A stretch of DNA of 64,000 nt from Chondrosia reniformis (lineage: Eukaryota; Porifera; Demospongiae; Chondrillida; Chondrillidae), in assembly GCA_947172415.1 (NCBI GenBank), contig OX359190.1, positions 7,254,001 to 7,318,000 on the forward strand, given 5' to 3'. Below the pieces are notes generated by a model. It did not search any database and was not told where the DNA came from. It saw only the letters and a list, made by a program, of their open reading frames with translations. Position 1 is the stretch's first letter, and each line of letters starts with the position of its first letter. This document shows, one piece after another, positions 38,018-53,248 of the stretch. The position numbers were made by a program, and so were the translations under genes.

Positions 38018-38703
38018 AAAAAGGTTTACATCGAACTTCGATCGACTTCCAAGAGAAATAGAAAGGCTACATCGAGACAGGGAAGCACTAAAGGTTGATA
38101 AAGGACAGGCAAAGCTTGAAATAGAAAAGCTACAGCATCAGTAAATCTATCAGATGTACGGTATACGTCAAAAGTAATGCTAATACTCACGAGATTTGAG
38201 TGCGAGTGCCTCAAAGAAGCAAATGCTAATGAGTGGCATTTAGCTCGAGATTTTAGCGAGGACCAAATGGTGTGCGCACAACAAACCTGATAATGGTATA
38301 AATAAGCAGGTGTCGAATTTTTTTTACACAACCTTTCGAGAATCGACTGTCAATCCTTCTTAAGCAATCAATATATCACCGAAATCGATACCTCAGCTAA
38401 TTCTTTCTTGATTCGGCCATAAGAATAGGTATATTCGGTCGTAAGGACTACGATACGTTGTCTAGCATAATGAGATAGTCATGGCATAGTGGCGTCACTT
38501 CTCAAATCTTGAATTTCTCATCGAAAAACGTGTTGCTTTTAGCATTCAATGCGAACGTATAATGTATTTTCCCATGATATTAGATTGAGGTGTAGCCGAG
38601 CGATGCTCGAGATGATTTCTCGCCATACTAATAAATAATGTTCTTCTATTATTGCCATCTCACTACTAGTGACAACACAGTTAGTTAAAGGGGGTAGTGT
38701 GGT
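38018..38703 (+). repeat. segmental repeat A, copy 1 (encodes a coiled-coil tail)
   Basis: About 660 bases from 38040 match 47281-48034 at high identity. At its start, a frame reads IERLHRDREALKVDKG and stops at a TAA near 38144. A heptad-like pattern suggests the last exon of a coiled-coil protein carried by the repeat. Copy 2 has a frame-changing difference after KVDEG. Confidence 0.7.
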
Positions 38704-43745: not shown

Positions 43746-43963
43746 TTGTTTTTAATTGTAACAATTGTAAGTTCAAAAATGTTATATATAATGTACAGAC
43801 ATTGAGTCTTAATTAATGTTTTGAAGCCAGTGTAACTATGGCAACAAGGAGTGGGGTGAGTGTCTAACAGACTGGTTGGAATGTTGATTGTGTATCCCTA
43901 TGAATTTAATTTTCATTTGTTTGTGCTGGTCATGCTCAGAGGCTGAGTTTGCACATATATATA

Positions 43964-43983
43964 CTGTACTGATTGAAAGTAAT
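43964..43983 (+). repeat. left terminal inverted repeat of the BEN transposon
   Basis: CTGTACTGATTGAAAGTAAT directly after TA. Sub-terminal GC-rich palindromic repeats (cgagaggcctcgagaggcct) follow at about 44015-44040 and could be transposase-binding sites or hairpins. Confidence 0.8.
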
Positions 43984-44146
43984 GTGAGAGTCCCCGCGAG
44001 GGTCTCCCACCCACTCGAGAGGCCTCGAGAGGCCTCGCGAGCGCTCGCAGCACGTTATCACCTCGCAGGGTGTATAAACGCCTTAAATCGTTCGCTACTA
44101 CGTGTTAAAATAGGCATTTAGTCGTTATTTGTTATTCTGAAACGTT

Positions 44147-45731
44147 ATGACAGCGAAAAATTTAATCTCCGTGGAGTGGCTCGAGTCGCGCGACCAAGGA
44201 AACATCAATAAAGTCAATATAAAACACGTAGTAGAGCCTGGTGTGGAAGATATTTCAGTGGGGGCAATCGTCAAAGTGAAATTTGGCAACAAAATTTACA
44301 GCGCCAAAGTTTTAGACTTGCTTTCGTGGAAGCCTGGCAAGAGGAAAAGTAGGAAGAGGCCTGCAAAAGAGAATGTAAGTTTTCTTGAAATTAAAATAAG
44401 GGGTAAGCCACTTACGAATTTGATTATGCTGCACTTAATATCCATATCGTAGGTCATTAAAAAGGCAAAAGTAACGCGCAAATCTAAGCAAGTGAGTCAT
44501 ACACCCTACGTGCATCTAGAGTAACCAATCAATAATCGGCCACTCGTATGGTTATTATTCTTTTGTGTGTGCTTAATTCCCACTGTAGATCACTAAAAAG
44601 GCAGATACTGCGACTCGAAAATCTAAGCAAGTGAGTCAATCAAAAATACATGCATCTATCAATTCATCAAATTTATAAATGATTATTGTTTTGTTTTCAC
44701 AGAAATGGCTGGGAGTAGGGAGTCCAGTGAGAGCCCCATTAGGGACAATCAGCAACACCAGTCAGCCTTCTACTACAGTGGCTCTGACCAATCTGTCCCC
44801 TGTTCGCTGCTCTTCCTCACACTCATCCTCACTACTCTCTGCTTCCTCCATCTCAGTTTCGCCCATCACCCCAACATATTCACCCACTACACACCCTGCC
44901 CTTTCCTCCACATTAGTCTCTCCTCGCATCCCAACACAGTCACTTTCGGCAACCCCAAGACGTTCATTAACCTACAGACTGTCTTCCTCCACCATCTCAC
45001 CACCACTCCTTACTACACCACATTCATCGACCTACCATCCCCCAACAGCTCCACTTTCACCAATATATCAACCCATAATTCATCCTTCACACTACACTGA
45101 TCCCTCCCAAGCCCCACTAATCCATCAGTGCCATTACAATTATCCTCACTACACTCATCTTCCTGTGCCCACTCCACCCCCTATGCATCCAGCCCTCTCA
45201 CCAATGTTAACATACCCACCATATCAAGTCATCTACCCTCCTACCCCTACTTGTGCTTGCACTCCACGCCCTACTTGTGCTTGCACTCCACGCCCTACTT
45301 GTGCTTGCACTCCACGCCCTATAGCTACTTGTGCTTGCACTCCACACCGTTCTGCTCCTGATGTGGATGAAGAGGAGTCATTTATAAAATTTGATGAGGT
45401 TTTTGAAAATTATACTAGTGGTGAAAACCTTAAATTTCAGCAGGCAATAATAGACAATACCTATCAAAAGGCCTCATCAAAAGGAAACCTGGCTGTCCTG
45501 CTAAGTAGAAAGGCCTTTACAAGAAGAGAACGGAGGAGAGCTAACTGTGATGGAGATGCAAGATATAAAAAGGAAGCCTTATCTCCAAGCCGGCTGGATG
45601 CTATTAAAAGAGCAATTGGGTCGATCTACCCTAGGCGATATGGAGAAGAAGAAAAGGATTGGTGGAGACCATTTAAGCAGGCAATAAATGAGAGTTGCCG
45701 CAGATTAAATAGAAATAAAAAGTTCTGCTAA
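44147..45731 (+). CDS. BEN-domain protein carried by the transposon, 4 exons, 445 aa
   Basis: Exons 44147-44374, 44453-44491, 44589-44630 and 44703-45731 all join in phase 0. Exon 1 is a compact basic module (VGAIVKVKFGNKIYSAKVLD, a beta-barrel-like pattern recalling Tudor or chromatin-reader folds; inference). Exons 2 and 3 are near-duplicates encoding KKAKVTRKSKQ and KKADTATRKSKQ, nuclear-localisation-like. Exon 4 starts with a Ser/Thr/Pro-rich stretch and a TCACTPRP repeat. It ends in about 80 residues fitting a BEN domain: LAVLLSRKAFTRRE, then KEALSPSRLDAIKRAIG, DWWRPFKQAINESCRRL. BEN domains bind DNA or chromatin in animal regulators, some viruses and some transposons. It faces the transposase gene. 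Role unknown: target choice, silencing evasion or regulation are possible. Confidence 0.75.
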
Positions 45732-45927
45732 TTATAAACTAAATCTACTACTATATAGTAAATTTCTTGTTAAGAACATTTATGAGCCAAAATACTCCGT
45801 GAATCCAACCATCATCAATGAATGCATGTGAATATACCGAAAAATAGTAATATAGTAATATAAAAATAGTAATATAAAAATAGTAAAAGAAAAATAGTAA
45901 TATAATAGTCCACAATAATAAATAATA

Positions 45928-46947
45928 TCACTCTCCAGTTATTCCACCTTCCTTGGCCACAATTAATGGTAACACTGAATGCGTGTGTGAGATATATTTA
46001 ATACATTTAGTTATGGACATTTTTAGCCTCCAAAATTGCTGAATTCCTTGCACCAATTCTTCTTTTGATAAAGGTTTCACCTGGCGTGCCAGGTAATGTT
46101 TTAATTCTTTCCAAACCCTTTCAATAGGGTTCAGATCAGCACTGCTGGCAGGTGTCTTCCACCAATTAATTTTCTCATCAATGTAGAACTGCTTTGCCTT
46201 CTTGCTAGTGTGTTTTGGATCGTTGTCCTGCATAAACCTGTAACCATCTGCAAATGTGTCCTTTAGAAATGGCAGGAGATGATCTTTCAAAATTTCAATG
46301 TAAAGATCTGCATCCATTATTGAATCAAATATACAAATTTTTGTAGCCCCCCGTTTCGAAATACCGGCCCAAACATTTACTTTCAAGGCATGTTTTGCTT
46401 GTGGCTTCAGCATCCTTTCCTTCCCAACTTGTACCCGCATATAATCAGCATGTCTTCTCAACTGCACTGAACTCTCATCAGTCCAAATCACGTCATTAAA
46501 TTCATCTTTGCTCTGCAGACACTTTAGTGCAAATGCTTTTCTGTTAATTTTATTTGTTTCACTGATCATGGGCCCAAAACGAGTTCGTACAACTTTCCAC
46601 TTGAGATTTTGCCTTAAGTGAGCTCTAATCGCCGATGAAGAAATTATTATGCTGTACTCTTTGTTGAGAAGGTAAGCAAGTTCCCTTGAAGAGAGCTCAT
46701 CGTCTTCTTTCAAGCGATTGTTTAAGAAGACTCCCATTTCTGCCGTTATTTTGGGACGTCTTCCAGATCGTCTGAAGTCTTGCAATCCTTCACCAGTCTC
46801 CCAGCGCTGAATCCACCTTCGAACAGTTTGTGCGGTTGTTGGAAAGCCTTCTTCGCTTAATATTCCAACGATTTCTCCTACCGTCTTTCCATCCGTTTTT
46901 AAAAAAACGATTCTCTGTCGAACGTATGGATTTAAACGACGAGGCAT
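45928..46947 (-). CDS. Tc1/mariner-type DD34E transposase, intact, 339 aa
   Basis: A single exon from ATG to TGA without breaks. An N-terminal helix-turn-helix pair (residues about 1-115) binds the terminal repeats. The catalytic triad is Asp157 (VIWTDESSV), Asp241 (MQDNDPKHTS) and Glu276 (LNPIERVW), with 34 residues between the last two: the DD34E spacing of Tc1-like enzymes. The C-terminal helical part runs to IVAKEGGITGE. The ATG lies 193 bases inside the right terminus. The length (about 340) is normal for the family, so the enzyme could be active. Confidence 0.93.
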   Translation of the reverse strand: MPRRLNPYVRQRIVFLKTDGKTVGEIVGILSEEGFPTTAQTVRRWIQRWETGEGLQDFRRSGRRPKITAEMGVFLNNRLKEDDELSSRELAYLLNKEYSIIISSSAIRAHLRQNLKWKVVRTRFGPMISETNKINRKAFALKCLQSKDEFNDVIWTDESSVQLRRHADYMRVQVGKERMLKPQAKHALKVNVWAGISKRGATKICIFDSIMDADLYIEILKDHLLPFLKDTFADGYRFMQDNDPKHTSKKAKQFYIDEKINWWKTPASSADLNPIERVWKELKHYLARQVKPLSKEELVQGIQQFWRLKMSITKCIKYISHTHSVLPLIVAKEGGITGE

Positions 46948-47120
46948 TCTTCGAGAACAAACAGAGAGATTATTTTTTAGATCACACTAACGAAAACCAA
47001 TAATATTTCACGCCTTATCGGTAAAGAAGTGTGCTAACGAGATGCCTTATCGTTATATAAACGTGCTAACGAGATGCGAGCGTTTGCGAGGCCTCGAGTG
47101 TGCTTGCGAGGGACACGCTT

Positions 47121-47140
47121 ATTACTTTCAATCAGCACTG
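47121..47140 (-). repeat. right terminal inverted repeat of the BEN transposon
   Basis: On the minus strand CAGTGCTGATTGAAAGTAAT, with TA outside it. Subterminal cgaggcctcgc and repeated gagatgc...cgttagcac motifs at 47035-47085 lie between it and the transposase start. Confidence 0.8.
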
Positions 47141-47229
47141 TACATGGAGTAGTAATTCAACTATTGAACCTGGACAGTTCACAGCATTCATCACTGTAGG
47201 TTCTGTCAGTCTCAAGATGAGTACTTGAA

Positions 47230-48034
47230 ACATGTAAGAGAGGAGATAAAAGTAATGTTCAGTCGCGACGTGAAAAGCTTAAAGCAGCAAATAGAAAGGC
47301 TACATCGAGACAGGGAAGCACTAAAGGTTGATGAAGGACGAGGCAAAGCTTGAAAAAGAAAAGCTACAGCATCAGTAAATCTATCAGATGTACGGTATAA
47401 GTCAAAAGTAATGCTTATACTCACGAGATTTGAGTGCGAGTGCCTCAATGAAGCAAATGCTAACGAGTGGCATTTAGCTCGAGATTTTAGCGAGGACCAA
47501 ATCGAGTGCACACGACAGACCTGATAATGGTATAAATAAGTAGGTGTCGAATTTTTTAACTACCATTCGAGAATCGACTGTCAATCCTTAAGCAATCAAT
47601 ATATCGCCGAAATCGATACCTCAGCTAATTCTTTGATTCGGCCATAAGAATAGGTTTATTCGGTCGCAAGGACTACGATACGTTGTCTAGCATAATGCGA
47701 TAGTCATGGCATAGTGGTGTCACTTCTCAAATGTCAAATTTCTCACCAAAAAACGTGTTGCTTTTAGCACCGTATAACGTATTTTCCCATGATATTAGAT
47801 TGAGGTGTAGTCGAGTGATGCTAGAGATGATTTCTCGCCACACCGAGTAATTCTCCCTCATTTCTCGAAATCGTCACCTATACTTGTTGATGTACGTCAC
47901 TCGGTAGTAGTCAATTTACCCCACGATGGTCACCTTTCAAGATCGAGATAATGCTCTAATTACCAATAAATTCTATTATTGCCATCTCACTACTAGTGAC
48001 AACACAGTTAGTTAAAGGGGGTAGTGTGGTGCAA
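47230..48034 (+). repeat. segmental repeat A, copy 2
   Basis: Matches 38018-38703. A frame reads YLKHVREEIKVMFSRDVKSL then KQQIERLHRDREALKVDEG, ending at a TGA near 47352. The sequence continues without interruption into repeat B (48036), unlike copy 1. It includes an extra stretch near 47850-47960 not present in copy 1. Confidence 0.7.
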
Positions 48035-48280: not shown

Positions 48281-50070
48281 TGGGTAGTGGGGCCATAGCC
48301 ACTGCTCCGAAAAGTTCTTGTGTAATTGTAATAGAAAGATATATGAGGGATTGTGTAAGAGTATAGAAGACTCCCGATGATAGTTATGTTTGCGTCATCT
48401 GACAAATAAGCGGAAGTGGCGATTAATTGAAATCAGTTGTTTAATATAGTGGTGTGTATTATTCGACTGCAATTAAATATTGTCGGTTTTGAGTTAGCAT
48501 AAGATTGTGTAAATAAGGAAGGTGACAACCACTAATTAACTTGTAACATTTTTAATCGAGAAGATTTATTGCCTAAGGGAAAGGGGAGGGGTTTAATGGT
48601 TAGCGACTTTATTGAAGAACATGGAGGCTTTTTACAATTAACAGATGAAGAGGTAGAAGATGCTAAACGAATTTATAGTAATCCTAATTTTCCACAGTAT
48701 GGTAGAGAAATTTTGCACATAGGAGCAGAGAATGAGGGATACTGGACTAGTGAACTATTCGTTAAACATGTAAAGAAAGTAGCCAAAATTGTATCATACA
48801 AGTATCCAGTAGATAGATTTAGCATAATATGGATTTTTGATCAAAGTAGTAATCATAGGGCATATAGTGATGATGCATTAGTAGCAAGTAGGATGAATGT
48901 AAATGACTGAGGCAAGCAACCAGAAATGAGGACAACAACATGGAATGGCAGGGAGCAGGTTATGGTTAACAGAATGGGACAAGCAAAGGGATTACGGACA
49001 GTATTGATAGAAAGAGGTGTGACTGCAGCTACGGATATGACAAAGAAAGAAATGATGGATATATTAGGTAAACATGAAGATTTCAAAAATGAAAAATCTA
49101 AAATTGAAAGAATTTTGCAGGCATTAGGTCACAGAGTACTATTTTTACCAAAATTTCATCCAGAACTTAATCCAATAGAGAGGGTATGGGGTAAAGCCAA
49201 GGTTTATGCAAAGGATAAGTGTGATTACACATTCAATGGACTGAGAAACGTAATTATACCAGCTTTTAATAGTGTAAGTACAGATGACATTAGAAAATTC
49301 TTTAGGAAATCCCGCGATTATGCACATGCATACAGAGAAGGCTCTACAGCATTAGAAGCAGACAGTAAAATTAAAGAGTACAAAAGTCACAGAAGAGTTC
49401 CAGAAACAGAAAGTAGATAAGATGTTTGATTTTACTGACTTAATTTAATACCATACACCTCACATTTTTGATTTCCAGTGTATTTCATTATATTGTTTAC
49501 ATTGTGGTTTCAATTATGCAAATTAGGTAAAATATAAAAGTTAATAACTCCTTCCTAGAACCATTTATGGAAAAAATCCTCTTTACAAATTTAGATAATT
49601 CATTCTAGTTTAGAATGCTAGCGAAATTTACTTCCTAGAAGGTTTCCCCACAAACTAGATAGAAAATGAATATTTGTACCATTAAAAATTTCCAACTGAT
49701 ATTTCTCAAAAATAAAGAAGTATATTACAAAAAGCCTCTTTATAAAGTTTAAAAATTATCTTAAATATATATTACATTAAACAAAGTAAAAAAATTTCAA
49801 ACAACCTAGGAGGAGATTGAAGAAAAGCATCTTTTTACCTTATTTGGAAATCGGGGGCAATTACGCAAGCCCATGGCTACCATGGTAACACAATTGTCTC
49901 GCTATTCCAAAGCTACATGACTTAGCTACAATCTGTCCAAGTTTCAAAGAAAAGGACTTTACCAAATTTGAATTTAAGCTTATCAAAGCTTCAGAGGTAA
50001 AAAATTCAAAAAGTGGAAGCTTTGACTGAAACGCACTATAGTGCTAGCAGAGAGGGGGCATATTTTATAG
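48277..50070 (+). mobile_element. IS630/Tc1-related transposon with a defective transposase
   Basis: Starts acatttgggtagtggggcca, shared with 40063 and 50806. The transposase at 48569-49420 is followed by AT-rich sequence. Near 49855-49895 the sequence cttgcgtaattg...gctaccatgg occurs inverted relative to the left end, so the right terminus may be about 49860-49900 or farther right. The boundary is uncertain. Confidence 0.55.
48569..49420 (+). pseudogene. IS630-like DDE transposase with one in-frame stop
   Basis: One continuous frame of 284 codons broken only by TGA at 48908-48910, in a conserved segment (VASRMNVND*GKQPEMR). Visible motifs are IIWIFDQSSNHRAY with the second catalytic Asp, and LNPIERVWGKAKVYAK with the Glu. 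The N-terminal DNA-binding part is short or missing, so an upstream exon is likely. The enzyme would be inactive without read-through. Confidence 0.8.
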
Positions 50071-52299: not shown

Positions 52300-53248
52300 A
52301 TTGTAAAAAAAGTTAACTTTCACCGAGCATGTCAAGGAAACGTATACGGGCACGGGCATTGAAAAAAACGTACGGCTTTTTTACGTAAATGGATAGGTGT
52401 ACCAGAGGATACGTACGAACATACAAACTAAGTTGCACATTCCTATAATTTATTATACATCGCTAAAGTGTTAGGTGAAACAGCGGTAGAAAAGAATCCT
52501 TTAACGTAATCGGAATAAACCATTCTTCAACTCAACACTAAAGAAATCTCGACACTAAATGAATCTCGGAAAGGTGTAACATTCTTAATAATTATCGCTA
52601 TAAGCATATGTTCCGTAGCTATGGGTGTCCTAGTAGATACGTAAACATTCGTAAGTAGGTCGTATACGGGCATTCTGCTTAAAACTTTGGAGTTTCAATA
52701 AAGCTTCGATCAAACTTCGGTGAAAATTCGACCAAATTCCACAAAAATTTCTACCTAACCTCGCTTTAAATTCGGCAAAACTTTGATTTCTTCTAATCAT
52801 CATCTCAGTAGCAATTTTGCGTAGTAATAGACATTATTCAACATATCAAAGTGGAAGTGTGATAATACCCGAAATCGCGAATACATGGTAAACTGAATTT
52901 CATAATGTGCTAAAATTGTAGGAAAAGAACTTGCACACAAGAGAAATGCCAATGGGTGGTGCCATCCTGTCAGTCAACCCCAACTTCTACTACAAAGGAA
53001 CTGGGTGACTTCTTTCAGACGCTGAATCAATGTTGAACTAAACCTGCAATGCTACAACTTTATTATGCCCAAGATTTAACGTTGGAAGCCAATCTGGATT
53101 CAGATGATCTTACTCAACTGGCTTTGCCGCAACTAAAATACACAACACCTAAAACACGAGGCGATTGTGTAATATCTGACGTCACACGAAAACGCTAAAA
53201 CACGAGGTAATTGTGTAATCATCACACGAAAACGCTAAACAGCATTAA
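52300..53248. other. spacer upstream of IGBP1
   Basis: AT-rich, with no supported gene. Near 53150-53240 two direct copies of taaaacacgag...attgtgtaat...cacacgaaaacgctaaa lie just before the IGBP1 ATG and may include its promoter. Confidence 0.5.

Follow-up and report, generated by a model that had tools for sequence, protein, structure and literature searches.

Why would a Tc1/mariner transposon carry a second gene, one with a BEN domain at its end, when elements of this group are the textbook example of a one-gene transposon? The question is raised by a locus of the sponge Chondrosia reniformis, in a stretch of 64,000 nucleotides (C2:7254001-7318000, hereafter the window), where positions 43964-47140 hold a complete Tc1/mariner (IS630/Tc1) element with two genes, one for a transposase and one for a BEN-domain protein. 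A search of the genome (117.38 Mb, 15 contigs) shows that this two-gene unit has moved, that both genes are intact and under selection, that the two are found together in nearly all intact members, and that arrays of short motifs stand at the ends of elements with either gene order. We favour, with a probability of roughly 0.58, the explanation that this is an old two-protein lineage, in which the BEN partner would bind the end arrays and aid end recognition or pairing and transposition.

The left end of the element reads TA and then CTGTACTGATTGAAAGTAAT from position 43962, and the right end, which closes at 47140 and is followed by TA, is its inverse, with 18/20 bases identical. The element flanks fused at one TA (query 1-239, junction at ~202) match three unoccupied places in the genome at 97%, and both empty sites that were aligned (2/2) have no insert and a single TA. 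The limits 43964-47140, placed by the original prediction at near-matching 20-base ends flanked by TA, are therefore exact. Other copies of the flanking repeat match the fused flanks at 84-90%, and as several repeat copies without an insert are matched, the element sits at a TA inside a copy of another repeat. A genome search for further copies recovered a full second one, C3:7152782-7156022, which carries the two-gene unit whole, in flanks that differ from those of the window element, with 2 substitutions and 2 repeat-length indels over ~3.2 kb. The unit has thus moved whole and recently, and the element is as young as it had first appeared. Terminal inverted repeats (TIRs) are present in the window element, which has a TA target-site duplication, and in several relatives. 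They stand at TA in C1:5376k, C9:2784k, C2:6139k, C10:1094k, L048-L051 and L055, and a perfect 32-bp pair of inverted ends, TA included, encloses the head-to-head pair C3:7166k. In several relatives represented by short or decayed stretches, including C2g, C12i, C12l, C14n and L053, no TIR was found.

The transposase has 339 residues and no stop, and its catalytic residues D157, D241 and E276, with a spacing of 34, are invariant in an alignment of 11 sequences; the lesion-free DD34E enzyme that had been described is borne out. It matches DDE_3 (expect value, E, 1.7e-17) and also HTH_32 in Pfam, and the NCBIfam IS630 model at E 1.7e-39, above the model cut-off. A transposase profile matches the structure of SB100X (Sleeping Beauty) at E 6e-38. 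The DD34E triad, the helix-turn-helix (HTH) part, the TA duplication and the TIRs together place the element in Tc1/mariner (IS630/Tc1).

The partner gene converges with the transposase gene and has four exons with GT..AG introns and a predicted product of 445 residues. The original prediction, in which a poor BEN score would have removed the claim, is upheld on this point, as the BEN domain scores 27.5 bits (E 3.6e-6) against a Pfam cut-off of 23.2. A joint profile of 15 BEN sequences matches the structures of BEND3 (E 2e-9) and BANP (E 6e-8). Taken alone, the BEN parts of some distant clades fall below the Pfam cut-off or give no score, but these nonetheless align with the window clade. The spliced structure draws support from relatives in which a single uninterrupted frame spans both the N-terminal module and the BEN domain, with 508 residues in C1:5376k, 445 in C9:2784k and 376 in C14:1864k (from the first Met); the start of window exon 4, KWLGVGSP, aligns with SLWLGNGSP in the C9 protein and SLWLGNGTP in the C14 protein. 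Splice signals and frame agree with the four-exon model, but because the protein of some relatives comes from a single exon, introns are confined to some families and are not a general trait. Exons 2 and 3 are alike (VIKKAKVTRKSKQ / ITKKADTATRKSKQ), which agrees with the duplicated basic exons noted at first.

The N-terminal module aligns across clades (14 sequences), with W11 and G39 nearly invariant. Structure profiles match it weakly: an antifreeze protein comes first (E 0.001), followed by the tudor domain of KDM4A (E 0.003-0.006, over ~25 residues). The barrel-like module of the original prediction therefore stands as a conserved unit, and on these weak profile matches its fold is possibly SH3/tudor-like. 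The linker that follows is basic and low-complexity or coiled-coil-like, the coiled coil being judged by eye. It carries family-specific tandem peptide repeats (TCACTPRP, HHPVYPSTPS and TFQSPYPP; window 45238-45345, and the C1a and C9b proteins). A motif picked out post hoc, [PAVS]Lx[DE][IVLM][TNSD], is present in 7/15 linkers, where shuffles give a mean of 0.39, and its L is often preceded by R at a distance of three; a role in degradation or docking is conceivable. The window linker has a related form, RAPLGTISN, which we take to be D-box-like.

These parts of the protein bear on the possibility that the partner controls copy number or target choice, either as a repressor of transposition or through an N-terminal module that tethers the integration complex to chromatin. 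The weak likeness to the KDM4A tudor domain would suit a tether, deletion derivatives of two lineages retain the start of the module, and the D-box-like motif (post hoc) could confine the protein to one phase of the cell cycle; a repressor, on the other hand, would be unexpected in nearly every autonomous family, and we regard this explanation as improbable.

The window transposase as query gave 122 matches in the genome. A transposase was counted as intact if it had no stop and its alignment covered at least 300 of 352 residues; there are 29 of these, including that of the window. BEN places number 108, pooled from several searches after exclusion of rows with the N-terminal module only and of duplicate rows. 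For 28/29 intact transposases the opposite strand has a BEN place no more than 4 kb away, whereas 29 random points gave a mean of 0.22 and a maximum of 3 over 1000 draws, which argues against chance capture. The sole miss, C4:3020471, is frameshifted and adjoins open reading frames (ORFs) read by eye as reverse-transcriptase-like. Copies with the same ends and transposase but no BEN gene, which would have spoken for a chance association, were hence not seen among intact members apart from this miss. This strengthens the proposal of a DNA- or chromatin-binding factor supplied by the element itself, although it stays a prediction. The 28 pairs comprise 19 tail-to-tail and 9 head-to-head arrangements, and the pair must therefore have outlived a change of gene order. 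Among decayed members, 12 of the 16 long stop-bearing transposases have a BEN place, as do 10/14 of those with 200-299 residues; a thirteenth long one, C10:983682 (L065), has BEN-like ORFs. Transposases of ~39% identity (L054, L062-L064) were tried as BEN-less controls and rejected, as their partner lies on the other side, head-to-head. Viral and prokaryote collections yielded distant transposases only (33 and 3 loci, 20-43% identical over parts).

The two genes also share a history. Transposase and BEN distances agree across 13 elements, near-identical copies left out (r 0.66, p 0.0003), and the subclades {C1a, C2f, C14n}, {C2c, C3d, C9b, C10j} and {L049-L053} are common to both trees, whose deeper nodes are partly weakly supported. 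Between families both genes are under purifying selection. For C2c-C9b the nonsynonymous and synonymous distances (dN/dS) are 0.143/1.88 in the transposase and 0.258/3.14 in the BEN gene, where dS is close to saturation, and both ratios are ~0.08. The BEN values for C1a-C14n are 0.325/2.07, and those of the N-terminal module are 0.187/1.81 (C9b-C3d), 0.184/1.87 (C3d-C2k) and 0.248/1.69 (window-C5q). Between-family pairs with finite dS other than C2c-C9b give ratios of 0.10-0.16, and the rest are saturated at synonymous sites. The selection claimed at the outset is thus found between families; young copies within one family have dN/dS of ~0.2-1.8 on few changes. Such within-family ratios are common for element copies.

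Pairing and selection together bear on the simplest rival, a host BEN gene that was captured once and has since hitch-hiked without a function for the element. BEN domains are present in chromatin proteins of animal hosts (PMC10206803, in excerpt), and 56/108 BEN places have none of the 64 tallied transposase rows within 4 kb (52/108 do), so that some may be solitary; the tally leaves out shorter transposase fragments. A passenger should nevertheless not be kept in 28/29 intact members and in two gene orders, nor should both protein modules be under purifying selection between families, and five BEN-less elements show the end arrays described below weakly or not at all. The pairing and the selection disfavour a host gene picked up by chance, and we consider a mere passenger very unlikely indeed.

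What, then, might the partner act on? The ends of these elements are rich in repeated short motifs. In bases 31-210 of each end, 6-mers are repeated above shuffles (p<=0.05) in 19/26 ends of 13 elements, with z>=3 in 17; the five BEN-less controls (L057-L061) reach p<=0.05 in 2/10 ends and z>=3 in 1, and window pieces reach z>=3 in 1/59. A held-out test took the 6-mers repeated in one end of an element and compared the other end with the interior: their density was higher in that other end in 25/26 tests, against at most 2.1-fold in 10 tests on the controls. CpG is also concentrated there: per 100 bp, the ends hold 4.6-11.4 and the interior 1.6-3.9 in 13/13 elements, against 1.4-3.6 (ends) and 0.9-2.4 (interior) in the five controls. 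The motifs are family-specific: AGGCCTCG/CTCGC in the window element, GTACTCG in C2c, CTCGA/CACTCG in L048, ACGGGCGTA-like in L049-L051, GTTAAC in L055 and CCGCGGAA in L068. The BANP-like CTCGCGAG was considered as a shared target, but it occurs in the ends of the window element, C1a/C2f and L048 only (4/13 elements), hence is not general. Promoters are a disfavoured interpretation of the arrays. In the head-to-head elements L067 and L068 the genes start near the middle (frames open at 1391/1841 and 1378/1661), where some 6-mer repetition of other motifs is also seen, and the arrays are at the ends, away from the gene starts. This favours a function of the ends over a promoter function.

The favoured explanation joins these observations. 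The DD34E transposase would cut and join at TA sites, and the partner, through its BEN domain, would bind the CpG-rich short-motif arrays that lie in the last ~250 bp at both ends. It would act as an accessory factor in end recognition or pairing, in synapsis or in cleavage, and the outcome would be help with transposition of the family's own copies. The BEN domain of BANP was crystallised on CGCG-containing DNA (PMC10206803, in excerpt); taken with the constancy of the pairing, the selection and the end arrays, this leads us to infer that the partner binds its own element's ends and helps in transposition. A bolder form of the proposal would make this an obligately two-component animal Tc1/mariner lineage, in which a BEN protein coevolves with clade-specific CpG arrays at the ends and is required either to transpose or to evade silencing, and would have such elements among the origins of animal BEN genes; we hold this tentatively, at somewhat less than even odds.

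The main rival is anti-silencing. Here the BEN partner would bind the same CpG-rich arrays but open or demethylate the family's copies, for expression and for cutting of the ends, in the manner of VANC. The targets of VANC are often tandem repeats that differ between related elements, and the VANC proteins have variable peptide-repeat regions and diverse exon structures (PMC5735166, in excerpt); in the sponge elements the arrays likewise differ by family, the linkers have peptide repeats and the exon structure varies. CpG-enriched ends and an N-terminal module that is possibly, on weak evidence, tudor-like would also fit a role in chromatin. Two points speak against it: in the two head-to-head elements examined the arrays lie away from where the genes begin, and the BEN domain of BANP bound methylated and unmethylated DNA equally (PMC10206803, in excerpt). 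We judge anti-silencing doubtful, but less so than control of copy number or target choice.

Several observations weigh against a partner that serves transposition at the ends. Sleeping Beauty and Mos1 are mobile with a transposase alone, and a partner is in principle unnecessary. Four of the 16 long stop-bearing transposases have no BEN place listed: L065, with its BEN-like ORFs, C2:6288006-6288989 (58% identical, one stop), C5:4197089 and C1:4947566; for the last three BEN was judged from the list of places. The agreement of distances is not significant within the six window-clade elements alone (r 0.36, p 0.12). In the within-end test p>0.05 at 7/26 ends, including both ends of C1a and of C2f, and 2/10 control ends pass p<=0.05, the ends of L057, L058 and L061 being uncertain. 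C1a and C2f are near copies, which leaves 12 independent elements among the 13. C10e fails one direction of the held-out test, and TIRs longer than 30 bp inflate some of its counts. The motif map was built from motifs picked in the ends, and it is therefore the held-out test and the CpG count that carry weight. Single-sequence structure models are poor (mean predicted local distance difference test, pLDDT, 53 and 40) and were used for the statement that the N-terminal module is made of strands only, and for nothing further.

Table 1. Features of the two-gene element in window coordinates
Feature	Position	Strand	Evidence
Whole element	43964..47140	.	TIRs, TA sites, empty sites at 97%, near-identical C3 copy
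TA target site, left	43962..43963	.	Empty-site alignment
TA target-site duplicate, right	47141..47142	.	Empty-site alignment
Left terminal inverted repeat, 20 bp	43964..43983	+	18/20 vs right end; relatives with same end type
Right terminal inverted repeat, 20 bp	47121..47140	-	18/20 vs left end; relatives with same end type
Left CpG-rich array: CTCGAG, AGGCCTCG, CTCGCGAG, CGCTCGCA	43984..44061	.	z 4.3, p 0.005
Left arm, 33-bp subterminal inverted repeat	44029-44061	.	Inside left array
Right subterminal array	47063..47120	.	z 8.0, p 0.0025
Right arm, 33-bp subterminal inverted repeat	47063-47095	.	Inside right array
Exon 1, N-terminal module, possibly SH3/tudor-like (weak)	44147..44374	+	Aligned in 14 copies across clades
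Exon 2, basic	44453..44491	+	Splice signals, frame
Exon 3, basic, resembles exon 2	44589..44630	+	Splice signals, frame
Exon 4, with WLGxGSP motif, linker rich in Pro/Ser and bearing peptide repeats, BEN domain and stop	44703..45731	+	Junction fits uninterrupted relatives
Linker motif RAPLGTISN (D-box-like)	44730..44756	+	Related forms in other clades; post hoc
BEN domain, residues 366-437	45489..45704	+	Pfam PF10523; BEND3/BANP structure profile
DD34E transposase, 339 residues, intact, converging on BEN gene	45928..46947	-	ORF, profiles, alignment

Shorter derivatives accompany the complete elements. At least seven with window-family ends retain ~446 bp of the left end and ~200-235 bp of the right; they have lost the BEN domain and almost the entire transposase, and exon 1 of the partner gene is still there, apparently with a frameshift in 4/4 checked. 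A larger broken piece, C5:4154560-4159242, has exon 1 and transposase fragments and has lost the BEN part. Derivatives of ~1.1 kb from the head-to-head family (L107:89-1178, L108:955-2038 and ~18 more places, two of them examined) still have their two ends and the first part of the BEN gene, with ~51 residues of the N-terminal module. The search of the window for other elements covered relatives of this superclade. It found L048-family pieces at 38157-38617 and 47391-47948, apparently two deletion derivatives, one of which starts ~250 bp beyond the right end of the element. At 52478-52677 it found an end piece of L050 type. A fragment of another IS630-type transposase lies at 49094-49216 (C2:7303094-7303216) and matches DDE_3 positions 93-135, the same positions that ORFs of L059 and L061 match.

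One further locus, L110:1707-3068 (C3:8964309-8965634, minus strand), has a single-copy intact ORF that combines a transposase-like N-terminal HTH (residues 4-64, best BLAST E 0.001) with a BEN domain, whose best matches are element BEN parts at 36-43% identity and which falls below the Pfam cut-off (E 0.005). A DDE part and terminal repeats were looked for at this ORF and not found. It is a candidate for a host gene made from both element genes.

The finding is wider than the single transposon first claimed, as it concerns a diversified two-gene lineage with two gene orders and motif arrays at its ends. If the favoured explanation is true, the lineage would supply a naturally occurring set of BEN domains paired with candidate target motifs, in which the rules of BEN recognition become testable, and a possible mobile source of animal BEN genes. 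Among the papers listed in searches of the open literature, judged by title or start of abstract, none describes a BEN-carrying Tc1/mariner element, Repbase and most subscription papers lying outside the search; PMC5704228 has 'BEN domain' in its references only and PMC10027918 does not contain BEN as a whole word.

How does the lineage compare with known systems? It resembles Sleeping Beauty-type Tc1/mariner elements in its DD34E transposase, TIRs and TA duplication, and differs from them in a BEN gene kept across families and in CpG-rich subterminal arrays. The host genes BANP and BEND3 share the BEN domain by profile, but here the gene is element-encoded and has a different N-terminal module. 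Plant En/Spm (CACTA) elements encode TnpA and TnpD, have an accessory DNA-binding protein and arrays of subterminal motifs at both ends, and make a 3-bp target duplication. The likeness to them is one of working logic, an accessory DNA-binding protein (here putative) with short-motif arrays at both ends; transposase and accessory protein are unrelated and the kingdom is different, and the TA duplication and IS630-type transposase set the sponge element apart from CACTA. The VANDAL elements of Arabidopsis have a Mutator-like transposase. Their VANC system is similar in its element-encoded partner, its family-specific arrays and a variable, repeat-bearing and variably spliced partner protein (PMC5735166, in excerpt). 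Pfam lists neither of the VANC domains, DUF1985 and DUF287, in the window protein or in those partners of relatives that were scanned, and VANC motifs lie upstream of a gene and in introns (PMC5735166, in excerpt), whereas those described here lie at the element ends. Tc1/mariner elements with several genes are already known from ciliates, with other partner genes. The TBE and Tec elements of the ciliate germline are Tc1/mariner clades that have additional ORFs beside the transposase, namely a zinc-finger protein and a small ORF in TBE, where the extra ORFs are reported to be under purifying selection, and a site-specific recombinase in Tec (PMC7325037, in excerpt); the word BEN is absent from the main text of that paper. 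If the partner has been kept through divergence and reordering, two-component control would be evolvable in Tc1/mariner as well, as it is in the plant En/Spm and VANDAL systems.

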